DNA from: Lampris incognitus | Taxonomy: Eukaryota; Chordata; Actinopteri; Lampriformes; Lampridae | Assembly (NCBI RefSeq): GCF_029633865.1 | Contig: NC_079211.1 | Span: 6,460,091 to 6,524,090, forward strand | Reading direction: 5' to 3' | DNA: 64,000 bases | Shown here: positions 14,976 to 57,945 of the stretch, piece by piece | Layout: every line of letters starts with the position of its first letter | Position numbering within the stretch: the stretch's first letter is position 1 | Translations under genes and position numbers: made by a program | The notes under the pieces: generated by a model | The model's database searches: none | Seen by the model: only the letters and a program-made list of their open reading frames with translations | What the model was told of the DNA's origin: nothing

Positions 14976-15532
14976 CCTTACATGGATCACTGAGCATGCA
15001 TAAAGACAGAGTTTTTGTTTGATCCAAAAGCAGCTGTACTGGTCTTCGGCAAGAGACATTTAACATGAGACCGACGGGTTAAACAGCAAGTATCTTAAGC
15101 GTTTAACACAAACCGCACATTCTTCTGGGAAGCAGCCAGTACACACTGCCGTGTTACTGGTCAGCTATTTTCAATAAGAGATGATTATCCTCTTCTATAA
15201 AGCTTTGCTCTTGAGGTTTCCTCAGTCAGGGTACTATGGGATTAAACGTCACCCCAAAAACCACCGGGCGAGTCTTTACCCCGTAAATAAGTTTCTCTCT
15301 GAGGCAGATGAAGACAAAGGGGTGAAAAACACACTGTTCAGAGAGACTACAGAGTGTTTACCCAGTTTTTCCACTAAAACCCAGCCCTTATTCACCAGGT
15401 TCTGGATCGTGTTATGTTTTGCACATCTCCCCTGTTGTGTTTGAAGTACCATGCAGTCAGATGTAAGTACTTCAACAGGTGGATCTCAGCTGGACACTGA
15501 TGGATGTGTAAAACACTGCGGATAAAGACAGG
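14976..15532. other. unannotated stretch
   Basis: No gene or known repeat seen. Confidence 0.45.
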
Positions 15533-15936
15533 TGTAATGTGCACAGATAAATGGACTCACTGGCCGGTTGGCTAACGGGTCGGACCCTTTAGTCGACTGG
15601 TTAACGTAGTCGCCCGTGATGCAGGAGACCCGGGTTCGCTTCCTGACTGCCCCCTGAATTTTGCTACATTGGTGTCAGAAGTGGGATGGTGAGACCGCGA
15701 GGCCACCGGAAGCACGTGTGCCCAGAGGCGTGAGGAGAGATGATTTGCTCAAGTGCTGAGACGCACTTCCTGAAGGAGGGGGGTAGTCTAACGACCATGA
15801 ACGAGCAGACTCACTGGCCGGTTGGCTAACAGGTCGGACCCTTTAGTCGACTGGTTAACGAATCGCCCGTGGTGCGGCAGACCCGGGTTCGCGTCCCAGC
15901 TGCGGCGGTACCCGGCTGCCCCCTGAATTCGCTACA
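15533..15936 (+). mobile_element. miniature LTR retrotransposon (TRIM-like) with tRNA-like LTRs
   Basis: Two direct repeats (about 15533-15668 and 15784-15936) share GACTCACTGGCCGGTTGGCT, CGGACCCTTTAGTCGACTGG and CCCCCTGAATT, and both end GCTACA. Right after the first is TGGTGTCAGAAGTGGGA (15670-15686), complementary to the 3' end of tRNA-Leu including CCA, a classic primer-binding site. Just before the second is a purine run (15772-15783), a likely polypurine tract. The internal part is only ~115 bp and codes for nothing, so the element depends on another for replication. The LTR contains a T-arm-like block (CCCGGGTTCGCGTCCC) resembling a Pol III B box, preceded by a D-arm-like GACTGGTTAACG. 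No target duplication was found. Confidence 0.7.
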
Positions 15937-16963
15937 CATGGATTTATGTGACGGCTCATAATGGTGACAGACTGGACCAAAAACGACCCAGCAGCTATGA
16001 CATACACTGGCTCCTTTTCCAAACCTGATGCCAACCCGTGGTGCTCAGATAAACGGCTCGAGATAAAAAACTACACAGACTGACGAGGATGCAGAAACCG
16101 ACACAAAAAATAAATAAATAAATAAATAAAATATGGACGACTTCCAATAACGCAAAGGAACACAAACTCAGACCGGCAGTGTTAATGAAACGCTCCACTA
16201 GTACATCACAGACCCATTTAACACAAATACACAGAGAAACGTTCAGAAACGCTCAGAAACAGAAGATAACAACACCGTGTCACATGACAGAGCAGCGTAA
16301 TGACATAAGCCACGGCCACGCAACTGGAGAAGCTGCGAGATGTTCAGCATGGGCCTGGTCACTGTAGGCCATCACTGCTCCAGAGCACCGCTGCTGATGT
16401 TGGTCAGCAGAGAAACATCTTACTGGTCGTACCTTTAAGGAAGACATCATCCTTTACGCCTTTAAATACCGAGCAATGAACTACCGACTATACCAGAGAT
16501 CTGCAATATTTCAAAATGCAAGCCTTCACTTCTTCTGACTCCGTCCTATTAAAACCCGAAGCAAAACCGAGGCGAGCTCGTTCATTTGGCCTCAACAGTC
16601 ATCGGGCTCGTTTGTGGGCGCTTTCAGCCAAAGTAAATTAATGGTTTTTCTCATTTCAAAATGTTCCGCTTGATTCATGTCGCTAGAAATTAAAAATAGG
16701 CATCAAGGAATTTATTCTGGGACCACCTCATTTCAAGCCCGTTCTTGAATAAGAAAACACACAAGTATTAAAAATACCAAATTCGGAAAAAAGCTAAACA
16801 ACAATAACATTAAACCAAAATAGATAAAATTCTCTACACATAAAAAAAGTGTCTTGGACCTGATGTGTGTTTAACTACCCTCAGCCAGACCTTCTTCTCT
16901 ACATGGGATCAATTACTAGCAAGCAAAATGTGTCCTCACCCACCTGCAGCGCTGTTTCTGGCT

Positions 16964-17007: not shown

Positions 17008-17557
17008 CCCTCAGGTCAACGCTTGTAGGCTTCTCGTTACTTGCTTAATTGGCACAGTAATTACTTCCCCTCCCAGACTAAGTGCTCCTGCCGGTGTGTA
17101 AGGAGGCTCGCGTGGACCTCCGTGTGCTCCGTGTCGTGGAATGTGGCCGTGTCTCCGCCGGTAACTATATCTGGGGAGGAAATAACTGGTTGTGCTGCCT
17201 GCCTGTTTAAACCTCAGCCACCTTTCAACAAGTAGGAACTTAAGTGGTTCGGCACGTGCTGGCAGGAGGATTTTCTGAGACACACCACGCTCTTTATTTT
17301 TTTTTGTTTAATCCTCGCTTGTGATGCGCTTACCAAACGACATAAGCCCTGTGCTGGCGTGAGTGCAGTACCCTCATTGTGTGGAGCTGTTATGACATCA
17401 CATGCACAATAAGTGAGTTTCAATGAATTTATTTGTGTGTTTGTTATTCAACACCTCAACACTGGTGTCTGAAGACTTTCTGGTTCTGTGCACAGATGAG
17501 ACCCTCCGTAATCCTCGTACATGTACCCCTTGGTCCCTTGTCCCCGGACAACCACAA

Positions 17558-24526: not shown

Positions 24527-27500
24527 TAATTTGCCGAGGGACGCTGGAGACGCCAGCGGGCGCGCATCGGCTGTGGATAATGGCGAGACGGTGGCTACAG
24601 CTGCAGGTGACTCTGGTTCCTCTGCCGCTGTGGATTCCAGTGTTGGCACAGGTCCTGCTCCTTGCGCGGAGTTGACCCCGGGCAGTGGAGTCGGTGTTGG
24701 CGTGGGGAGTGCAGTGAGCCTGCCTGGAGGGTGTACAGTAGTAGCAGAAGACTCGCCGAAATGGAGTCAGGTTGCAGAGCGGGGCTTACGCCTACATACG
24801 AGGAAGAATACCGAGGGCCAGCCCGGCTTGTCAAAATGGCATCCTGACAAACCTAAACGGAGGATCATGCCTAAGCCTATTGTTGGCACTGGGGCGCATG
24901 GCAATATTAAGGTGGTGCGCACGAAGCTGGTAAGTGTTTTTGCTACCAAATTCGGACCAGACTTTGATGCAGTGACGCTGTCTATCTATCTTATAGAAAA
25001 GCTTGGCCGTGATGTGATTTGTGAACGCATTGACACTGCGCGCAACAGATTCAGCTCATTTAAAGTGTGTGCTGAATGCAGTGAAGTCACGGAGATGCAT
25101 AACCTGGAAATCTGGCCGGAAGGCTCTGTTGTGAGGCAATACTATGAGCCACGCAAGCCTCTGGTTACAGGATCTAGCGCTGGTGCTACTGTGCCAGACA
25201 GGGCAGCAGCCGCACCCGGCACCTAAACTCTCAAAATGCGGGTTGTATCTTACAACGCACGCAGCCTGCGTGTAGGACAAAGAGCTGCGGATAAATCAAG
25301 ATGTTTGGTGGCTGACACACTGCTGGACGAGTGTGACATTCTGTGCATACAAGAGACCTGGCTTGCCAAACAAGACTTAGACAGACTGAACTCTATACAC
25401 GAGGATTTCCATGGTGCTGGTGAAGCCACCACTGATCTCAGCACGAAAATAGTACGAGGTAGGATACCTGGTGGTGTGACTATACTCTGGAACTGCAAAT
25501 ACAATCCACTGGTTAAGGTGGTACGTTTAAATGTTGATTGGGCCACTGGGCTCGAGTTTAATTATAATGATAAAAAGTTTATCATTTTAAATATATATAC
25601 ACCTTATGAATCCTATGAGACTGAGGATGGATTTCTGAACAGGCTAGCCTTTGCTCATTCTTTTATTGAGGACAGTGACTCAACTTGTGTCTGTGTAATT
25701 GGAGATTTTAATGCTGACTTGTCAGATAACAATTCTATATTTGCAAAACATCTGCTGCAGTTTTGTAATGATAGCAGTTTAATACTATCTAGCAAAGTAT
25801 TCTTGCCTGATAAGAGTTTTACTTACGTAAGTGAAGTGTGGCATACTGCTTCTTGGCTTGACCATTGTATGTGTACAGCAGATCCCCATGCCTCTGGATA
25901 ATACGGAGATATGCTATGGGTTGGCCACCTCTGATCACACACCTATGTTACTAAATGTTGAGAATGTACCCCTGCTGGCTGTTACTGGTAATGCTGCTAA
26001 TACAGGGAAGCTAGATTGGACAAATCTGACTGAGGAGGATATTGATAGATATTCTACCCTAACTGACAGATTGCTTAATAATATTGCACTGCCTAGGGAT
26101 GCTTTAATGTGCCTAAATATGAATTGCGAAGACCTACATCATGATGCTGACCTCTGCGCCATGTACGATAATATTGTGACAGCTCTTAATGCCTCCAGTG
26201 AGTCCTTCCGTAAACACAGGAATAAGGTGCATAATATCAAACCTGGGTGGAATGAGTTTGTGGCTGAACAACATGCTGCAGCTAGAGAAGCCTTTGCACT
26301 CTGGTCTAAGTCAGGAAGGCCTAGACAGGGGGCATTGCTTGAGCATAAAAAACTTACAAATACAAGATTTACATATGCTCTTCGTTTTATTAAGCAAAAT
26401 GAGAACACAATGAGAGCTGACTCGCTTGCCAGGAAGTTGCAAAGTAACAATCATAATGACTTCTGGAAAGAGGTCAAAGTCATGAATAATCATAAAACCC
26501 CTCTACCGTCTGATATTGAGGGTGTTTGTGGCTCAGACAAAATAGCTGAGGTATGGCGAGAGCATTATTGTAATTTATTTGTGTTAAAAGTAATGCAGTT
26601 GTAGTGGGTAATGCTGATCTCTGTTAACACAGTAGTCAGGTCAGCTGATGTCTCCGATGCCACATAATACCAAGACTTGTGGTATGGACTGCATTACTGC
26701 AGAACACCTAAAGTATGCCAGTCTTAGGCTCTGCCCAACGCTTGCCATGTGTTTCACTGGTCTTATGGTTCACGGGGTTCTTCCTGATTCTATGATGTCT
26801 GTACTGTTAGTCCCTGTCCTTAAAGACAAGGCTGGCAAACTAAACGGCATGGACAATTATAGACCTATTGCCCTTGCCAGTGTTCTTTCTAAAGTGCTGG
26901 AAAGAATTTTCCTAACTAGGTTGGAAATGTATATTCTCAAGACTGACGATCAATTTGGATTTAAAAGAAAACACAGCACTGATTTATGCATTTATGCTCT
27001 AAAGGAGATAGTGGCCAAATATAGAAGCCAAAATTCTACTGTATTTCTGTTTTATTGATGCTTCCAAGGCATTTGACAGGGTTAACCATGCGAAATTATT
27101 TATGAAATTGCTGGCTAGAGGTGTTCTAAATGATATAGTCAGAACTCATGTCTTCCGGTATGCTCATCAGACGTTTCAGGTTAAATGGGACAATGATGTG
27201 TCTGCCCCATTCCGTGTAGGCAACGGGGTTCGCCAAGGTGGGATTTTGTCTCCTTTTTTGTTCAACATGTATATGGATGACCTGTCGAGACAGCTGAATG
27301 GGTGTAACACGGGCTGTCTTTTGTGGGTGGCTCTGTCATCAATCACCTCATGTATGCTGATGATTTAGTTTTAGTTAGCCCATATAGTGCTGGACTTCAG
27401 CAGCTACTGAAGGTGTGCTCGCAGTATGGCGAAGAACATGACATTAAATTTAACACCAAAAAAAGTAACGTCATGATTGTCTGAACTAGAGAGGACAGGA

Positions 27501-35174: not shown

Positions 35175-36010
35175 ACTCGAAGAGGATGAATCAGTTCATG
35201 TGGACTCAACGTTTACTGACACACACGTTTCATCACCATCTAAGTGACCCCTTCAGTCTCACCTGACTGCAGGTACCCCACCCTTATAAACAATACAGTG
35301 GCTGCAGGTGTCCCCACCCTTATAAACAATACAGTGGCTGCAGGTGTCCCCAACCTTATAAACAATACAGTGGCTGCAGGTGTCCCACCCTTATAAACCA
35401 GACAGTGGCTGCAGGTGTCCCCACCCTTATAAACCATACAGTGGCTGCAGGTGTCCCCACCCTTATAAATAATACAGTGACTGCAGGTACCCCCACCCTT
35501 ATAAACAATACAGTGGCTGCAGGTGTCCCCACCCTTATAAATAATACAGTGACTGCAGGTACCCCCACCCTTATAAACAATACAGTGGCTGCAGGTGTCC
35601 CACCCTTATAAACAATACAGTGACTGCAGGTGTCCCACCCTTATGAACAATACAGTGACTGCAGGTACCCCCACCCTTATAAACAATACAGTGACTGCAG
35701 GTGTCCCACCCTTATGAACAATACAGTGACTGCAGGTACCCCCACCCTTATAAACAATACAGTGACTGCAGGTACCCCCACCCTTATAAACAATACAGTG
35801 GCCTAACAACCGAGACCAACGACCAGTTTCATATGCTGGTTGTTGGTCTCGGTCATGGGTGTGACCATTAAGTAGAGTCTCGATGGCCATGTGTACTATT
35901 AACAGAGGATTTGGGAATGGTTGCAATCACAGCATTGTATGATGGTGACAGATTTACTCTTAGATCCCCCCCCGCCCCCCCGGTTCAGGGATGGTCATTA
36001 CCTCTTCACA
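35175..36010 (-). mobile_element. Penelope-like element terminal region with internal array
   Basis: On the minus strand it matches the terminal part of the PLE at 13591-14975 (TGAACTGATTC, AACCAGCATATGAAACTGGT, AGTACACATGGCC, AGCCACTCTATGTGAAGAGG). A 36-bp unit from within it is expanded to about 15 copies (35268-35800). Confidence 0.82.
35268..35800. repeat. 36-bp minisatellite, about 15 units
   Basis: The unit is CTGCAGGTGTCCCCACCCTT plus ATAAACAATACAGTGG. A single copy of the same sequence, reverse complemented, is part of the PLE terminal repeat at 14715-14765. Units alternate between GTGTCC and GTACCC variants, showing higher-order duplication of blocks. Confidence 0.95.
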
Positions 36011-36060
36011 TAGAGTGGCTATGTTGCAGGTGGCTGCTGGAGGTGAGGGTGGCATCACAG

Positions 36061-38412
36061 AGTGTACCAGGCCCCAGTGGCGTCTCCAGTGTGCCAGGCC
36101 CCAGAGGCATCTCTAGTGCGCCAGGCCCCAGAGGGGTCTCCAGTGTGCCAGGCCCCAGAGGTGTCTCCAGTGTGCCAGGCCCCAGTGGCATCTCTAGTGC
36201 GCCAGGCCCCAGAGGGGTCTCCAGTGTGCCAGGCCCCAGAGGTGTCTCCAGTGTGCCAGGCCCCAGTGGCATCTCTAGTGCGCCAGGCCCCAGAGGCGTC
36301 TCCAGTGTGCCAGGCCCCAGCAACGTCTCCAGTGTGCCAGGCCCCAGTGGCATCTCTAGTGCGCCAGGCCCCAGAGGCGTCTCCAGTGTACCAGGCCCCA
36401 GAGGCATCTCTAGTGCGCCAGGCCCCAGAGGGGTCTCCAGTGTGCCAGGCCCCAGAGGTGTCTCCAGTGTGCCAGGCCCCAGTGGCATCTCTAGTGCGCC
36501 AGGCCCCAGAGGGGTCTCCAGTGTGCCAGGCCCCAGAGGTGTCTCTAGTGCGCCAGGCCCCAGAGGTGTCTCCAGTGTACCAGGCCCCAGAGGCGTCTCC
36601 AGTGTACCAGGCCCCAGAGGTGTCTCCAGTGTACCAGGCCCCAGAGGCGTCTCCAGTGTGCCAGGCCCCAGTGGCGTCTCCAGTGTACCAGGCCCCAGAG
36701 GCGTCTCCAGTGTGCCAGGCCCCAGAGGTGTCTCTAGTGCACCAGGCCCCAGAGGCATCTCAAGTGTGCCAGGCCCCAGAGGCGTCTGCAGTGTACCAGG
36801 CCCCAGAGGCGTCTCAAGTGCGCCAGGGCCCAGAGGCGTCTCTAGTGTACCAGGCCCGAGGCGTCTCCAGTGTGCCAGGCCCCAGAGGCGTCTCAAGTGT
36901 GCCAGGCACCAGAGGCGTCTCCAGTGTACCAGGCCCCAGAGGCGTCTGCAGTGTACCAGGCCCCAGAGGCGTCTCAAGTGCGCCAGGGCCCAGAGGCGTC
37001 TCTAGTGTACCAGGCCAGAGGCGTCTCGAGTGTGCCAGGCACCAGAGGCGTCTCCAGTGTACCAGGCCCCAGAGGCGTCTCAAGTGTGCCAGGCCCCAGA
37101 GGCGTCTCAAGTGTGCCAGGCCCCAGAGGCGTCTCAAGTGTGCCAGGCCCCAGAGGCGTCTCCAGTGTGCCAGGCCCCAGAGGCATCTCCAGCATGCCAG
37201 GCCCCAGAGGCATCTCCAGCGTGCCAGGCCCCAGAGGCGTCTCAAGTGTGCCAGGCCCCAGAGGCGTCTCAAGTGTGCCAGGCCCCAGAGGCGTCTCCAG
37301 TGTGCCAGGGCCCAGAGGCGTCTCCAGCGTGCCAGGCCCCAGAGGCATCTCCAGCGTGCCAGGCCCCAGAGGCGTCTCTAGTGCGCCAGGCCCCAGAGGC
37401 ATCTCCAGTGCACCAGGCCCCAGAGGCGTCTCTAGTGTGCCAGGCCCCAGAGGCGTCTCAAGTGTGCCAGGCCCCAGAGGCGTCTCCAGTGTGCCAGGCC
37501 CCAGAGGCTTCTCCAGTGTGCCAGGCCCCAGAGGCATCTCCAGTGTGCCAGGCCCCAGAGGCGTCTCTAGTGTGCCAGGCCCCAGAGGCGTCTCCAGTGT
37601 ACCAGGGCCCAGAGGCGTCTCTAGTGCGCCAGGCCCCAGAGGCGTCTCCAGTGTACCAGGCCCCAGAGGCGTCTCCAGTGTACCAGGCCCCAGAGGCGTC
37701 TCTAGTGTGTCAGGCCCCAGAGGCATCTCAAGTGTGCCAGGCCCCAGAGGCGTCTCCAGTGTGCCAGGCCCCAGAGGCGTCTCCAGTGTACCAGGCCCCA
37801 GAGGCGTCTCTAGTGTGTCAGGCCCCAGAGGCGTCTCAAGTGTGCCAGGCCCCAGAGGCGTCTCAAGTGTGCCAGGCCCCAGAGGCATCTCCAGTGTGCC
37901 AGGCCCCAGAGGCGTCTCCAGCGTGCCAGGCCCCAGAGGCATCTCCAGCGTGCCAGGCCCCAGAGGCGTCTCTAGTGCGCCAGGCCCCAGAGGCGTCTCC
38001 AGTGCACCAGGCCCCAGAGGCGTCTCTAGTGTGCCAGGCCCCAGAGGCATCTCAAGTGTGCCAGGCCCCAGAGGCGTCTCCAGTGTGCCAGGCCCCAGAG
38101 GCTTCTCCAGTGTGCCAGGCCCCAGAGGCGTCTCTAGTGTGCCAGGCCCCAGAGGCGTCTCCAGTGTACCAGGCCCCAGAGGCGTCTCTAGTGCGCCAGG
38201 CCCCAGAGGCGTCTCCAGTGTACCAGGCCCCAGAGGCGTCTCCAGTGTACCAGGCCCCAGAGGCGTCTCTAGTGTGTCAGGCCCCAGAGGCATCTCAAGT
38301 GTGCCAGGCCCCAGAGGCTTCTCCAGTGTGCCAGGCCCCAGAGGCGTCTCCAGTGTGCCAGGCCCCAGAGGCGTCTCCAGTGTGCCAGGGCCCAGCGGCG
38401 TCTCCAGTGTGC
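36061..38412. repeat. 27-bp minisatellite, about 87 units
   Basis: The unit is GTGCCAGGCCCCAGAGGCGT plus CTCCAGT. Because 27 is a multiple of three and the unit lacks stops, three frames stay open for hundreds of codons: + strand VSSVPGPRG, + strand SPVCQAPEA, - strand LETPLGPGT. Small indels near 36855 and 37013 swap frames. There is no start context, splice evidence or flanking domain, so I treat the open frames as artefacts rather than a collagen-like gene. Confidence 0.93.
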
Positions 38413-39499
38413 ACAGTTCGGCCACGGTGGAGGTCAGCCAGGCCCCAGCCCATTTACAAACAATTTGGTTGTTCGAGACTCACTTAGTAGAACTGAATGA
38501 TTGTTACATGTTTGTCTCAGTGAGCAGAGAGTTATTTTAGTTTGCATCTACTACAAGTCTTAATTTAAGGTCCTTTTCATTCCCATATCCGATTACCAGT
38601 ATGCTAGTACATGGCCGGCAAATATGTACCTAAACAACAACTTGTAAAATGTCTTTAGGTTTCACAAAATAATCATGCTTATTTGAACAAACAAGTTGCA
38701 GAGGAACAAAACATTCACGGATACTGCAGCAACATGTTAAATGTAATACACCAATAAAAAATGTCATCTTTAATTAGTGTGTTACAGTCTGATGGAGAAA
38801 TGAATCGACTTAGTTTGCAGTGAACTGTGGTGAAGGCATTTTCAGACGTTTTAAACCTTAAGGTGATGTTATGAATAGACCTACAGTTGTTCAGAAACCC
38901 CTACAGCCACATAAGATGGGGCTTTGAATAATCACCCGGAATCACGCCTAGAATAATTTGCATAATTTATTTGGATAACCACCACAGCTGATAAAGTCCC
39001 AAATTCAGGACGTTGTTCCAAATCCTTTATCATGCCACCAAAATATAGAAATCTGAGGTAGTAGATCCCAGATCAGCCTGCTCATCTACATTTTGGCCTG
39101 CATGACAGTGAGACTTGAAGTGAACCTTAGCTGATTGCCTTTCACATTTAAATACATTTTAAGTTATAACAAACATGAGCAATATCCAATATTGTTAGAT
39201 AGAAATAGAAACATAAATAACATTTATCTTTCCTTGATTTCCAAACATGAATATTTGGATAATTTCACCTTTTATTGCATATTAAATTCACCTCGTGACC
39301 AGTGGCAGTGATCTGAGCCCTCAACTTCGAGGGAAGAATAATTTAAGGGGATAAGTTTTACATCCATTCTGGGGAAAAAGTGCCAGCCAATGTTTTGGTC
39401 AATATTTACAAAACACAGAATGATATTTTGGAAGTAAAGAGCTTAAGCTTAAAATTCCTATAAAATCACCACAGGGTTTGTTTTCATAATTTTCCTCCA
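38413..39499. other. unannotated AT-rich stretch
   Basis: No gene or repeat recognised. Confidence 0.45.
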
Positions 39500-45539: not shown

Positions 45540-46015
45540 ATTCTTGGGAGTTCACACCACAGAGGACCTCTCCTGGTCCTCACATGTCACTGCGCTCTCC
45601 ACGAAGGCCCAGCAGCGTCTTCACTTCCTGCGGCGTCTGAAGAAGGCGAGTCTCCCCCCACCCACCCATCCTCATCACATTCTACAGAGGCACCATAGAG
45701 AGCATCCTGACCAGCTGTATCTCTGTCTGGCATGGGACCTGCAAGGCCTCCGACCGCAAACCCCTACAGCGGATAGTGAAGACAGCTGGAAAGATCATAG
45801 GAACTGCTCTCCCGTCCATCCAGACCATCTATGATGCACGGTGCACCCGGGAGGCTCTCAGCATCGTGAAGGACCCCACCCACCCTCCCCACATCCACTT
45901 CACCCTCCTACCCTCTGGCAGGAGGTACCGGAGCATCCGTGCTGCCTCCAGCAGACTATGCAACACTTTCATTCCTCACTGTGAGGTTCCTCAACAGCCT
46001 GAGCACTCAGACCTC
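45540..46015 (+). mobile_element. LINE fragment (CR1/L2-like C-terminal region)
   Basis: It encodes GVHTTEDLSWSSHVTALSTK, AQQRLHFLRRLKKASLPP, then GTCKASDRKPLQ and KIIGTALPSIQTIYDARCTR in shifting frames. It is truncated at both ends and interrupted at its 3' end by a SINE. It is antisense to the annexin gene. Confidence 0.82.
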
Positions 46016-46027
46016 CATAAAATGACT

Positions 46028-46468
46028 CCCTCCCCCCTTTTTTTCTCCCCAATTGTATTCAGCCAATTACCCCACTCTTCCAAGCCGTCCTGGTCACTGC
46101 TCCACCCCCTCTGCCGATCCGGGGAGGGCTGCAGACTACCACATGCCTCCTCCCATACATGTGGAGTCGCCAGCTGCTTCTTTTCACCTGACAGTGAGGA
46201 GTTTCACCAGCGGGACATAGCACGTGGGAGGATCACACTATTCCCCCCCAGTTCTCTCTCCCCCCTGAACAGGCGCCCCGACTGACCAGAGGAGGTGCTA
46301 GAGCAGCGACCAGGACACACACCCAAATCCAGCTTCCCACCCACAGACACGGCCAATTGTGTCTGTAGGGACGCCCAACCAAGCTGGAAATAACACAGGG
46401 ATTTGAACCGGCAATCCCCGTGTTGGTAGGCAACAGAATAGACCACTACACCACCCGGACGCCCCCAC
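46028..46468 (-). mobile_element. tRNA-derived SINE, family A, with target duplication
   Basis: A reverse-oriented full-length copy (minus strand starts GGGGGCGTCCGGGTGGTGTA). It is flanked by AAAATGACT at 46019-46027 and 46469-46477. Confidence 0.9.
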
Positions 46469-46574: not shown

Positions 46575-47735
46575 AAGGTTGAATCAGTTCATCTGGACAC
46601 AACGTTTAGTGACAGATACGTTTCATTATCATCTAAGTGACCTCTTCAGTCTCCACTGACTGCAGGTATCCCACCCTCATAAACAATACAGTGGCATAAC
46701 AACCGAAACCAACGATCAGTTTCATATGCAAATATGAGTGTGACTATCAACTAGAGTTTCGATGGCCATGTGTACTATTCACAGAGGGTTCGGGAGTAGT
46801 GGCAATCACAGCATTGTAAGATGGTGACGGATGTACTCTTAGCCCCCCCCCCCCCCCGGTTCAGGGATGGTCGCTCCCTCTTCACATAGATGGCCTCTTT
46901 GACTCCCAATTCAAACCTGCGTTCCTCCCTATCAAGGATGTGCACATCCTCATCCCCGAAAGAGTGGCCACTGGCCTGTAGATGGTGTAGACTGTGGAGT
47001 CCTGGCCTGTAGATGGTGTAGACTGTGGAGTCCTGGCCTGTAGATGGGTGTAGACTGGAGAGTCCTGGCCAGCAGATGGTGTAGACTGTGGAGTCCTGGC
47101 CTGTAGATGGTGTAGACTGTGGAGTCCTGCCCTGTAGATGGGTGTAGACTGGAGAGTCCTGGCCTGCAGATGGTGTAGACTGTGGAGTCCTGGCCTGTAG
47201 ATGGGTGTAGACTGGAGAGTCCTGGCCTGCAGATGGTGTAGACTGTGGAGTCCTGGCCTGTAGATGGTGTAGGCTGTGGAGTCCTGGCCTGCAGATGGTG
47301 TAGACTGTGGAGTCCTGGCCTGTAGATGGGTGTAGACTGGAGAGTCCTGGCCTGTAGATGGTGTAGACTGTGGAGTCCTGGTCTGTAAATGGTGTAGACT
47401 GTGGAGTCCTGGCCTGTAGATGGTGTAGACTGTGGAGTCCTGGTCTGTAGATGGTGTAGACTGTGGAGTCCTGGCCTGTAGATGGTGTAGACTGTGGAGT
47501 CCTGGCCTGCAGATGGTGTAGACTGTGGAATCCTGGCCTGTAGATGGTGTAGACTGTGGAGTCCTGGTCTGTAGATAGTGTAGACTGTGGAGTCCTGGTC
47601 TGTAGATGGTGTAGACTGTGGAGTCCTGGCCTGTAGATGGTGTAGACTGTGGAGTCCTGGTCTGTAGATAGTGTAGACTGTGGAGTCCTGGCCTGTAGAT
47701 GGTGTAGACTGTGGAGTCCTGGTCTGATGTGTTAT
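46575..47735 (-). mobile_element. Penelope-like element, 3' part with expanded coding segment
   Basis: On the minus strand it carries the PLE terminal repeat (TGAACTGATTCAACC, TAGTACACATGGCC) and the end of the GIY-YIG coding part (GAATTGGGAGTCAAAGAGGC, CAGGCCAGTGGCCACTCTTT). It then dissolves into a 31-bp tandem array. Confidence 0.85.
46973..47725. repeat. 31-bp minisatellite, about 24 units
   Basis: The unit is TCCTGGCCTGTAGATGGTGT plus AGACTGTGGAG. Its reverse complement is the PLE endonuclease coding segment that reads DSTVYTIYRP in the copies at 14410 and 63820. Two main variants (GGTGTAGACTGTGG and GGGTGTAGACTGGA) alternate. Confidence 0.95.
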
Positions 47736-47993
47736 TTGTTTGTTTTTATGAGGTCCATGTGAAATGTAACCTCGTTCTCCATTTTGTATGAGACATGCAT
47801 GTGAGGCAATGACAAGTAAAAGCAGTCTGAGTGTGAGTCACCGAACACCAACCTGATATACTAATTTAAATGACCTTTTGGACTCTCTCTCTCCTCTCTC
47901 TCTTCTCTCTCTCTTTGTGTCACATCTAACTTATCAGTTCCAGTTCCTGGTATTGTAAAAACTTGTTAGTTAAATTCAACAGATTCTGATTCT
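47736..47993 (+). mobile_element. LINE 3' tail remnants
   Basis: A segment like the end of a fish LINE (GCATGTGAGGCAATGACAAG) is followed by another ending in repeated ATTCTG units near 47975-47993. Only tails remain. Confidence 0.5.
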
Positions 47994-49065: not shown

Positions 49066-49260
49066 ATCCATCCATTATCCAAACCGCTTATCCTGCTCTC
49101 AGGGTGGTGGGGATGCTGGAGTCTATCCCAGCAGTCACTGGGCGGCAGGCGGGGAGACACCCTGGAGAGGCCACCAGGCCATCACAGGGCCGACACACAC
49201 ATTCACACCTAGGGACAATTTAGTACGGCCGATCCACCACCTGACCTACATGTCTTTGGT
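49066..49260 (-). mobile_element. SINE family B, 3' half
   Basis: Reverse complement of the body and tail (GATAGACTCCAGCATCCCCA, AAACCGCTTATCCTGC on the + strand). It stops at CCAAAGACATG and passes directly into an LTR fragment. Confidence 0.78.
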
Positions 49261-49345
49261 CTCCCGCACCACAGGTGACTATGTTGGGCCAGTCGACTAA
49301 AGGGTCCGACCCATTAACCAACCAGCTAGCGAGTCTACTCTTTAT
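49261..49345 (-). mobile_element. fragment of the tRNA-like LTR (same family as 15533-15936)
   Basis: The minus strand reads AACGACCATAAAGAGTAGAC, GGTCGGACCCTTTAGTCGAC and GTGGTGCGGGAGA, the first two-thirds of the LTR, ending before the B-box-like block. Confidence 0.7.
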
Positions 49346-49356
49346 GGTCGTTACAA

Positions 49357-49550
49357 ATTGGGCAGCGCAGTGGTTAGCACGGTCGCCTCACAGAAAGAAG
49401 GTCCTGGGTTCGAGCCCCAGGGTAGCCCAACCTTGGGGGTCGTCCCGGGTCGTCCTCTGTGTGGAGTTTGCATGTTCTCTCCGTGTCTGTGTGGGTTTCC
49501 TCCGGGTGCTCCGGTTTCCTCCCACAGTCCAAAGACATGTAGGTCAGGTG
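49357..49550 (+). mobile_element. SINE family B, 5' half
   Basis: GGGCAGCGCAGTGGTTAGCA, B box GGTTCGAGCCCC and body up to CATGTAGGTCAGGTG. With the 49066 piece it would make one complete SINE if the left part were inverted. Confidence 0.8.
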
Positions 49551-49653
49551 AAAACTATGTGTACTGTTGAATTTCATGAGTATTTTGATCTGACACCGTT
49601 TTCCACCTTTAATGATGTTGGAGTCTTTATTATAGAAATGTAATGGGTCTTAC

Positions 49654-53241: not shown

Positions 53242-53624
53242 CTGGAGTACACACACACACACAGACTTTACTGAGAGGACACAACTGAACAAACAAAACA
53301 AGTGTCAAGTAAAGCTGTGTGTTATGGTCAGCGCGGCCCAGTGCCGCTTTAAGTGGATTTCATTCAGTGACATTAAGACTCATTAACTTATCTGCAGTAG
53401 GAACGTTTCCATTCAAATCCAATTTCCATCCAAAAAACAAAAACAAAGTCAAAAAGAATACAAAATAAAAATAAAACCAAAACCTGCCCCTTCCTTAAGC
53501 TGGTTTTAAGCAGATGAACATCGTGCCATCATCTAGAACAGCGGTTTCCAACCTGTGGCTCACGGCCCACAGACGGTTCGCAGTAGAGCAGCAGCTGAGC
53601 TGTGGGACGTCACAATAAAAATAA
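53242..53624. other. annexin intron, unannotated
   Basis: Short CA run, otherwise nothing recognised. Confidence 0.45.
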
Positions 53625-53775
53625 TGTGGCGAATTCAGGGGGCAGCATGAGAAGCACCGCAGCCGGGACGCGACCCCGGGTCTCCCGCACCACGGGCGAC
53701 TACGTTAACCAGTCAACTAAAGAGCCCGACCCGTTAGCCAAGGGCTAGCGAGTCTACACATCCGTGATCGCTACA
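53625..53775 (-). mobile_element. solo LTR of the tRNA-like mini-element
   Basis: On the minus strand it starts TGTAGCGATCACGG and ends TTCGCCACA, fitting the TG...CA rule over 151 bp. It contains D-arm-like GACTGGTTAACGTAGTC, an anticodon-arm-like CCCGTGGTGCGGG and a perfect T-arm-like CCGGGTTCGCGTCCCGG. No 5-bp flank duplication seen. Confidence 0.7.
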
Positions 53776-54559
53776 CTATTTTGTTTGGAGAGAGAGGGAA
53801 AAAAAATCTTTTGTGATCAAATATCTATTTTATTTGAATTAAAAATAAAATTTTAAATAAAATAAATAATAACAAACAATAAAAACAAAAAGAAAAAAGA
53901 AAAACTTATTTTCAAACTCAACAGTCAATGGAAACTATGCAATGATTTAGTCATGTTACAAAATTCACATGGGTATACATATTTATAAAATATCACATAG
54001 GTATACATATTTATAAAAAACAATGTTTTTCGTTTGCTCATTAGTAGGTCATGAGTGAAGGCTGAAAATGGGAATATTGCACTGATCACCAACATAGAGG
54101 ATTGTTAATTATCTCTTTTTAACTGGTAATAACAACTTATTGATTATTTTGCTGCACAAAATATTTGGTGGGTCTTGGGTCAAGAAGTATCTCTGCAGGT
54201 GAGTCACTACAAGTGTTGGACCCCGGATCTAAAAGACAACGTCATGAAAAATATCATAAAGCAAATGGAGACGTGTCCATGTGGATTAGTTGCTAAAGGA
54301 GAATTAGAAAAGTCCACAACCATCGCTTGATATCTTTATCAACAAGTCAACTTTTACCACTCAGGCTGGTATGAAAATTCAGCTCTTTCGATCTGTTACT
54401 AACATGTACCATTTTACATAAAATAACTTGATGGAACTAGTTTATGAAACGGATAGCTCAAATCAAGCAATCTGATTGGGTGTTAGCCATGGTATAATAA
54501 CCGTATACATCAGCGATGACATCTAATTCCTTTATTATTTATTGCCTCACTCAGTACCG
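53776..54559. other. annexin intron, unannotated AT-rich DNA
   Basis: A 19-bp motif around GGTATACATATTTATAAA occurs twice near 53972-54017. Nothing else seen. Confidence 0.45.
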
Positions 54560-54960: not shown

Positions 54961-55299
54961 ATAATCTTTCTTACTCAACAAGTTGCTACTAATCTTATTC
55001 CAGCTGCTTGAGTATTAGTCCTTTTGTCTATACATCTGCTGCTGGTTCTTAGTGGGATCTTATTCTAGCTGTAGCTGTCTTATTCTATTTACTTACTTGT
55101 CTTATTTACTTATTCTAACTGTAGCTGATTTTAATCTAGTGTGTCCTTAAATATTTCTTGTTGCCTAGCTGTTTTGACTTAGTTATCCTTTTAGCTTATA
55201 AATATATTCCTTGGTAACTTGCTGTTTGCAGTTTTAATAGTATTGTGTGAGGTTTGATAGAGTTTTACATGAGTGACCAGTTTCTGGGCAATAGGCCTC

Positions 55300-57945
55300 T
55301 TTTCAGTGTACCTCTTTGGCCAATTGGGTGTTAAGTGGCCAGGGTGTGGCCTGCACTCATGGCAGACAATTCCTCTCCTCCTTTGACCTTCACCTCTCAC
55401 CCTCTCCTCCTACCCACAAGGCTGGCAACCAGCTGGACCTTATCTTTACTAGACACTGTCCTATTTCCAATCTCTCTGTTACTCCCCTCCAGCTCCCTGA
55501 CCACTATTTCATGTCCTACTCTCTCTCCCTCTCTTCACCACCCTCAGCCCCTTCCCCTACCCACATAGTTTACACCCGTAGACACCTCCGCTCTCTCTCC
55601 ACCACTGATCTTTCTTCCTCTGTTACCTCTATCCTCCCTACACCTGAATCTTTCTCTCTCCTACCCCCTGACACTGCTACTGATCTTCTTCTCTCTACCC
55701 TCTCCTCTTCTCTGGACAATCTCTGTCCCCTCACCTCCAGGCCTGCACGCCCAACTCCACCTGCCCCTTGGCTGACCGACTCAGTACGTACTGACAGACG
55801 GAGCCTGAGAGTGGCAGAGCGCAAATGGAGAAAAGTCAAACTCCCAGAGGATCTTCTCAACTTCCAGTCTCTTCTTTCCACTTTCTCCTCCTCCCTTTCT
55901 GCTGCTAAGGCTGCCTTCTATCGCTCCAAAATCCTATCCTCTGCCTTTAATCCTAAGAAACTATTTGAAACCTTCTCTAGACTTCTTCAACCCCACCTCC
56001 TCCTCCTCCTACTTCCTCCTTTCTCCCAGATGACTTCGCTAACTTCTTTGACAAGAAGGTAAATGACATCAGATCCTCCTTTTCTCACCACCCGGTTAGT
56101 GATGCTTGCACTATCCCACCCTCTGCACCCTCCTTCATCTCTCCACGTCCCACCCTATCCCACCTCGCTCCCCTCTCCCCCAACGACATTCTAAACCTCA
56201 TCACATCCAATCGCCTCACCACATGCTCCTTGACCCGGTCCCCTCCCCTCTTCTTCAGTCTATAGCACCTGAACTCCTTCCCTATCTAACCCACCTCATC
56301 AACACCTCCCTCCAGGCAGGATGCTTTCCATCTGCCTTAAAGACTGCTAGAGTCACGCCCTTCACAAGAAACCATCACTTAACCCCTCTGACGTCAAAAA
56401 CTACAGACCAGTTTCCCTTCTACCCTTTCTATCCAAAACTTTCGAACGTGCTGTCTTTAACCAACTTTCTTTGTACCTCCACCAGAACAACCTCCTGGAC
56501 CCCAACCAGTCTGGGTTCAGGGTGGGTCACTCGACAGAGACGGCCCTCCTTGCAATGACAGAATCGATGCACTCTGCGAGAGCAAACTCTCTCTCCTCTG
56601 TCCTGATACTCCCGGACCTGTCAGCTGCGTTCGACACAGTGAACCACCAGTTCCTCCTCTCTACCCTCAAGGGGCTGGGTGTCACAGGCTCTGCACTCTC
56701 AGTTGTTTGCAACCTACCTGACGGGTCGCTCCTACCAGGTGACATGGAGGAGAGCTGTGTCGGAGCCTCACAGACTAACTACAGGCGTTCCACAGGGTTC
56801 GGTTCTGGGTCCTCTCCTTTTCTCCCTGTACACGACATCCCTGGGTTCTGTTATTCACTCGCATGACTTCTCTTACCATTGTTATGCCAATGACACCCAG
56901 CTGATCTTGTCCTTTCCTCCCTCTGACACACAAGTAGAGACACGCATTGCTGCGTGCTTGACTGACATCTCGGAGTGGATGGCGACACACCACCTGAAGC
57001 TCAATCTGGACAAGACAGAACTGATGTTCCTCCCGGGGAAAGGTTGCCCACACCGAGACCTGGCCATCACCATTGACGACACCGTGGTGACGCCAAATCT
57101 GACTGTGAGGAATCTGGGTGTGATCCTGGACGACCAACTGTCGTTTGCTGAAAACGTTGCATCGGTTGCTCGCTCCTGCAGATTTCTCCTCTATAACATC
57201 AGGAGGATTCGCCCATTCCTCACCAACGAGATGGCGCAGGTGCTCATCCAGGCTCTGGTCATCTCCCAGCAGGACTATGGAAACATCCTCCTTGCTGGCG
57301 CCCCTGCGTCGGCCATCAGACCTCTGGAGCTTGTTCAGAAAGCTGCAGCTCAGCTGGTGTTCAACAGCTCTAAGTTCTCCCACACAACTCCCCTTCTCAT
57401 GTCCCTACACTGGCTCCCAGTAGCTGCTCGCATCCAGTTTAAGACTCTGGTGCTAGCCTACAGGGCAGTGAAAGGAACAGCGCCTTCCTATCTCCAGGCC
57501 ATGGTCAAGCCCTACACCCCCGCCCGAACACTTCGCTCTGCCGCCTCGGGACACCTGGTTGCCCCGTCGCTCAGAGGACCTTTCTGCCGATCGACCCGGT
57601 CACGGCTCTTTTCTGTCCTGGCCCCACAGTGGTGGAATGAACTCCCCACTGATGTCAGGACAGCGGAGTCGCTGCCCATCTTTCAGCGCAGGTTGAAAAC
57701 TCACCTCTTTAAGAACTACTACCCTGTTACTTGTTCTTAGCACTTATTGTATTCACTCATTAAAAAAAAAAAATCTCTTTCTTGCACTTTTACTTTAGCA
57801 CTGGTTTTGCTCTTAGATGCTTGTTTAGATGCACTTATGACCTCTGATGACTAGTAGTTCCCCTGATTTCCTACGTTAAATGCACTTATTGTAAGTCGCT
57901 TTGGATAAAAGCGTCAGCTAAATGACTGTAATGTAATGTGTGTTG
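55300..57945 (+). mobile_element. L2-type LINE, 5'-truncated, frameshifted
   Basis: ORF2 starts within the endonuclease (NQLDLIFTRHCPISNLSVTP). It passes through FNPKKLFETFSRLL and reverse transcriptase blocks NQSGFRVGHSTETALL, DLSAAFDTVNH and TGVPQGSVLGPLLFSLYTTS. The C-terminal region is intact to the stop at 57738-57740 (LHWLPVAARIQFKTLVLAYR, WWNELPTDVRTAESLPIFQ). The catalytic YADD box reads YAND, so one catalytic aspartate is asparagine. Frameshifts near 56080, 56550 and 56700 break the frame. The 3' tail is AAGCGTCAGCTAAATGACTG followed by TGTAA units. It lies in an annexin intron, antisense. Confidence 0.92.

Follow-up and report, generated by a model that had tools for sequence, protein, structure and literature searches.

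The element at positions 15533–15936 of the window, that is, the whole 64-kb stretch of DNA analyzed here, is a miniature LTR element, as an initial annotation of this DNA had observed. We consider it very likely that it is a decayed member of a high-copy family of non-autonomous TRIMs of the Helenus type, with a start by RNA polymerase III (Pol III) and mobilization by a Gypsy-type element predicted as parts of one joint explanation. In this scheme, Pol III would begin transcription at about position 40 of the 5′ LTR, slightly ahead of box A, and would continue into the 3′ LTR across an element poor in terminators. An autonomous Gypsy-type element would supply the proteins that package and reverse-transcribe the TRIM RNA, with reverse transcription primed by tRNA-Leu at the primer-binding site (PBS) and then from the polypurine tract (PPT), and the Gypsy-type integrase would insert the TRIM cDNA, often at RTAY-like sites. 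The structural reading given in the initial annotation, namely that of a non-coding LTR element that has a PBS, a PPT and a tRNA-like Pol III-type promoter in its LTR, is supported across the family, since paired LTRs, PBS, PPT, 4-bp duplications and box A/B, the features on which that reading had been staked, recur family-wide.

All parts of the window element lie on the plus strand. The 5′ LTR (15533–15668, 136 bp, TGTAATG...GCTACA) is a short form without a 16-bp segment and carries box A and box B motifs; the stretch from box A (TAGTCGACTGG) to box B (GGTTCGCTTCC) extends over 15589–15644, limits that are approximate and read from the sequence. A single T separates this LTR from the PBS (15670–15687), which is complementary over 18/18 nt to CCA-tailed tRNA-Leu, so that the annotated tRNA-Leu site with its CCA complementarity stands but is 18 instead of 17 nt long. 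The non-coding interior between the LTRs spans 15669–15786 and measures 118 bp once the LTR start is set by alignment, a slight correction of the roughly 115 bp given before. The PPT GAAGGAGGGGGG (15772–15783) is indeed found ahead of the second LTR, from which it is separated by TAG. The 3′ LTR (15787–15936, 150 bp) likewise carries box A and box B motifs and ends in GCTACA, but it begins with TC instead of TG. The two direct repeats are confirmed with identities of 98% over 53 nt and 83% over 41 nt at spacings of 254 and 253, respectively. A 'perfect' T-arm with the loop TTCGCGT, which had also been described, is not present in any one window copy when judged by eye: the 3′ LTR has the loop TTCGCGT with 4/5 pairs, and a solo LTR at 53.6 kb has the loop GTCGCGT with 5/5 pairs. 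The window element is flanked by the 4-bp sequences CAGG and CATG, which are alike at 3/4 positions, and its total length of 404 bp lies within the published Helenus size of 311–1263 bp (PMC10886601).

The tRNA-like motifs were evaluated at the level of the family. Typically, box A follows the consensus TRGYNNA and then GG, and box B the consensus GGTTCGANNCC. With these consensuses, 131 LTRs and 59 interiors were scored along with 2,620 dinucleotide-preserving shuffles. Both boxes at tRNA spacing, with at most two mismatches in total, were present in 109 of 131 LTRs versus 33 of 2,620 shuffles, which upholds the claim of tRNA-like Pol III-type promoter motifs inside the LTR; with at most one mismatch, the counts were 59/131 and 3/2,620. 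The start-to-start distance from box A to box B is 43 in 97 copies, and an acceptable box pair is absent from four of the 131 LTRs and from all 59 interiors. Since the LTR copies are relatives, a fair reading of these counts is that one family carries a box pair found in about 0.1–1% of shuffles. Box A carries TAGT, and in most copies one position of box B lacks the usual A, two departures that speak against the promoter. Judged by these motifs, the LTR probably holds a putative Pol III promoter.

The same data bear on a different explanation, according to which a conventional Pol II promoter in the LTR drives the TRIM and the likeness to box A and box B is a functionless leftover of an ancient SINE or a product of chance. 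Such an origin would agree with the observation that the box B columns show no extra conservation (mean 0.90, equal to the LTR average), and the reverse strand passes the box test at up to two mismatches in 10/131 LTRs, both being points against a promoter. It would also agree with the weak scores of tRNA models and the unclear isotype. In the Infernal-type tRNA check proposed in the initial annotation, the sole Rfam tRNA match of an LTR (locus L023, model positions 8–63), which counts in favor of the tRNA likeness, reached 21.7 bits and remained under the cut-off of 29; it was the only one among the first 20 loci, none was found in the second 20 loci, and the window copies had none even at E ≤ 10. 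Three window LTRs aligned to six host tRNAs with modest z-scores of −0.4 to 3.8 and no clear isotype, and when all 131 LTR copies were compared with these six tRNAs, the Thr and Val types were most often top-scoring. We nevertheless regard a Pol II-driven TRIM as unlikely, since both boxes at tRNA spacing occur in only some 1% of shuffles when two mismatches are allowed and some 0.1% when one is, the ten best conserved LTR columns (51–60, mean 0.96) run into box A, and TTTT, a Pol III stop, is rare in the element (9/131 LTRs and 0/59 interiors).

A functional tRNA, as opposed to a tRNA-like promoter, is unsupported. ARAGORN called no tRNA within the window, and the RNA of the three window copies folded no better than shuffles (z-scores of 0.98, 0.99 and −0.16), without a cloverleaf.

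We compared the family to already described systems. Kojima named such animal elements Helenus (TRIMp3) in 2024 and reported them from zebrafish relatives, sturgeon, coelacanth and others (PMC10886601). Helenus elements are short and non-coding, possess two LTRs with tRNA-like sequence and box A/B, have a PBS after the 5′ LTR and a PPT before the 3′ LTR, and in animals are flanked by 4-bp duplications (PMC10886601). A further trait is a Gypsy partner with a common PBS region, and in zebrafish thousands of Helenus LTRs and tandem arrays occur; Pol III function of Helenus has not been experimentally shown according to the same author (PMC10886601). The window family fits the Helenus kind, matched by described features and not against Helenus consensus sequences: it is like Helenus, including the fish families around LTR-11_DR, in size, box A/B in the LTR, PBS, PPT, 4-bp duplications, a tRNA-Leu primer and thousands of copies with tandem arrays, but differs in its box A, which reads TAGT here and TRGCY in Helenus (PMC10886601). 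Since Helenus has already been published, the window element belongs to a known kind, and an animal counterpart of Cassandra, which the initial annotation had suggested, is no longer new. A literature search from 2024 on for Helenus as a TRIM and LTR retrotransposon yielded the Kojima study alone, one covering TRIMp3 and LTR-11_DR yielded it besides unrelated papers, and a search for miniature LTR elements in teleosts returned no paper.

Cassandra itself is a plant TRIM whose LTR carries 5S rRNA sequence, and transcription from its Pol III promoter has been stated (PMC10886601). Like Cassandra, the window family is a TRIM with putative Pol III-type promoter motifs within the LTR; unlike it, the motifs are tRNA-like and not derived from 5S rRNA. 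Identity with Cassandra is ruled out, as Rfam yielded no 5S rRNA match at E ≤ 10 in 15500–15970 and 53600–53800. The TRIMs of the red harvester ant (PMC3532108) and of Echinococcus (PMC4558846) are also small non-autonomous LTR retrotransposons according to the portions of these reports drawn on here, in which a small-RNA promoter in the LTR is not mentioned.

The predicted primer could be traced in the host genome (1.48 Gb, 537 contigs), in which a 22-nt tRNA-Leu 3′ sequence occurs 39 times and its reversed control 0 times. When two globin exons were set against PDB chains, the names and top-ranking chains would suit a teleost host, although fused constructs are among the top alpha-chain entries. 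ARAGORN called one of five fetched places (L163) a tRNA-Leu(CAG) gene, and the window PBS is perfectly complementary over 18 nt to the 3′ end of this tRNA with CCA added. Among the other places, L160 resembles a decayed tRNA-Leu by eye, and L161, L162 and L164 hold the 3′ part only; at L161, this part directly follows an LTR end of the TRIM family. PBS and PPT are well conserved across the 59 interiors.

A pattern spanning the junction of LTR and PBS matched 8,104 times in the host genome with at most two mismatches (4,067 + 4,037; reversed control 0). From these, 20 loci were drawn out of 100 listed exact matches on contig C1. An upstream match to the LTR core was present in 18/20 loci. The match to the interior covers 63 nt or more in 14/20 and only 19–30 nt in 6/20, 19 of which are supplied by the search pattern itself; downstream, the LTR core is matched from a start no more than 140 bp away, likewise in 14/20, and some of the sampled loci have a shorter interior.

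These junctions are informative for a further explanation, in which the element arose by deletion from an autonomous Gypsy element with the same tRNA-like LTR. Some Gypsy elements use such a PBS, and tRNA-Leu is among the primers of vertebrate Helenus (PMC10886601), both of which would suit this origin. Still, we deem it very improbable given the short interior and the nearby downstream LTR core, each in 14 of the 20 loci. An LTR core within 140 bp downstream was missing at six junctions (L143, L146, L150, L152, L157 and L159), and in the three of them that were translated (L143, L146 and L157) a gag-pol frame was not seen by eye. Instead, the junction at L143 leads into a reverse-transcriptase-like frame, by eye a LINE fragment, that at L146 into sequence resembling a repeat of the window (ORF 45641–46285), and that at L157 into an apparent shortened variant of the element. 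No autonomous partner, for which the initial annotation had proposed to search, was found in these three translated junction loci out of 20 sampled of 8,104.

The mode of insertion was deduced from the flanks of 40 copies with both outer ends callable, to which the window element does not belong because the start of its 5′ LTR failed to align. An exact 4-bp target-site duplication flanks 15 of these 40 copies, compared to a mean of 2.8 for shuffled 3′ flanks, and none of the 2,000 shuffles reached 15. Compared base by base, the flanks agree at 113 of 160 positions versus 73 expected, and frame offsets from −4 to +5 other than the true one yielded 0–2 exact 4-bp duplications. Of the 4–6 bp duplications that had been suggested as a check, those of 4 bp are thus borne out and those of 5 and 6 bp are unsupported among the 40 copies, with 0 and 1 exact cases, respectively. 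Among the 15 duplications, ten have the form RTAY (ATAT, GTAT, ATAC). The flanks of L057 and L072 are nearly identical, so that these two may not be independent. An exact duplication is absent in 25/40 copies, including the LTR at 53.6 kb of the window, whose flanks are alike at 2/4 positions, and this counts against the TRIM explanation. A later sample of six copies, in at least two of which PBS-like sequence follows, contained 2/6 exact duplications, compared to a mean of 0.67 after shuffling; with 672 of 5,000 shuffles doing as well, this is not significant.

Single LTRs make up ten of the 40 copies, and exact flanks were found for four of them (L054, L057, L065 on the plus strand and L072). 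The minus-strand copy at L065, also counted among the ten, is followed by PBS-like sequence and hence is no genuine solo LTR. Of the four tandem arrays with callable ends, all but L031 possess exact 4-bp outer flanks (L015, L042 and L058), as if these three arrays had been inserted as multimers or had grown by post-insertion recombination.

A tRNA-derived SINE consists of one unit that has neither LTRs nor a PBS or PPT, and its insertion is of the LINE type. The suggestion that the element might be a dimeric SINE of two tRNA-related monomers and a linker, moved by a LINE, draws on the tRNA-like boxes in each of the two repeats and is extremely improbable in view of the TG...CA ends, 4-bp duplications, PBS, PPT and LTRs without interior. 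The same duplications, PBS, PPT and interior-free LTRs, together with the pairing of LTRs, rule out the SINE reading in general, and the element is therefore a TRIM.

The TRIM family is numerous in the host genome. The window element as query gave at least 61 genome matches from the best 40 of 5,001 first-look candidates, the interior at least 40 from the best 40 of 1,310, and the 53.6-kb LTR at least 43 from the best 40 of 2,554. The fetched loci contain three arrangements, namely LTR-interior-LTR units, single LTRs without interior and tandem arrays. The array at L042 has a period of 268 with 5.6 copies and 78% matches, and that at L131 a period of 397, which exceeds one LTR plus interior, with 3.8 copies that are 98% alike; the latter, with its TRIM sequence, resembles a satellite seeded by the element. 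The K2P distance of LTR pairs within a locus has a median of 0.168 (range 0.014–0.314, 53 pairs), and that between LTRs from different loci is 0.194 (2,966 pairs). Based on the within-locus median, the family is old, and its copies now look old and inactive. Scans of viral contig and genome contig collections with the LTR-core pattern returned 0 matches in each.

These independent tests support the claim that TRIMs with a tRNA-type LTR promoter can grow very numerous in a vertebrate genome, and they add measured 4-bp duplications, LTRs without interior and duplication-flanked arrays. Such LTRs could be misfiled in annotation as SINEs or tRNA pseudogenes. If the predicted Pol III transcription holds true, the route of a Pol III transcript into Gypsy-type particles becomes testable.

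The unequal length of the window LTRs recurs in many copies, in which the 5′ LTR lacks the 16-bp segment and the 3′ LTR is complete; by eye, the segment is bounded in other copies by the direct repeat CCCGGCTGC. When the window element, itself short/long, served as query, 39 loci comprised 19 short/long, nine long/long and no short/short pairs, and four others were unclassified on one side. Omitting pairs with an unclassified LTR, the LTR as query (29 loci) gave ten long/long and one long/short, and the interior as query (36 loci, four common to the element set) three short/long, seven long/long and one short/short. Among 56 loci found regardless of LTR form, 25 of 45 pairs could be classified, namely 14 long/long, six short/long, four short/short (three from one array) and one long/short. 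Since the 5′-short polarity is weaker in these form-independent loci, much of it may be due to ascertainment.

In textbook LTR replication, both LTR ends are copied from one template, so that an asymmetry inherited from copy to copy would mean non-standard copying of the TRIM, perhaps tied to its predicted Pol III transcript. LTR column 107 shows G in 33% of 5′ versus 81% of 3′ LTRs of 21 short/long elements (p = 0.0044, uncorrected for the number of columns); no other column beyond the deletion and its edges had p < 0.005, and three short/long elements (L012, L045 and L047) have exact 4-bp flanks. We consider inheritance of unequal LTRs across element copies highly doubtful; query bias and recurrent slippage between the short direct repeats are simpler readings, and the inequality in many copies is probably for the most part a sampling effect.

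BLAST within the window recovered the two further LTR copies that had been annotated near 49 kb and 53.6 kb, with matches at 49258–49353 and 53625–53778, both on the minus strand. The latter corresponds to a solo LTR without adjoining interior (53625–53775) that runs from TG to CA over 151 bp, as had been stated; the former is a truncated copy lacking the box B end by eye. A 29-nt core pattern with at most three mismatches matched three times in the window (both LTRs of the element and the 53.6-kb copy), compared to 0.00 for 100 shuffles. Beside the truncated LTR lies a tRNA-derived repeat (49358–49560) that is SINE-like by eye and has a weak Rfam match to mascRNA (18.5 bits versus a cut-off of 42.5). 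A LINE remnant at 55295–57931 contains a reverse-transcriptase domain and a UnaL2 3′ element (57878–57931), and an Exo_endo_phos endonuclease domain at 25227–25901 probably stems from another LINE. Long frames at 35872–38540 and 46775–47837 consist of short repeats, are open in several directions and appear by eye to be minisatellites. A frame at 17427–18536 matches Pfam FGF-BP1 (FGF-binding protein 1) with 153.6 bits and is probably a host gene.
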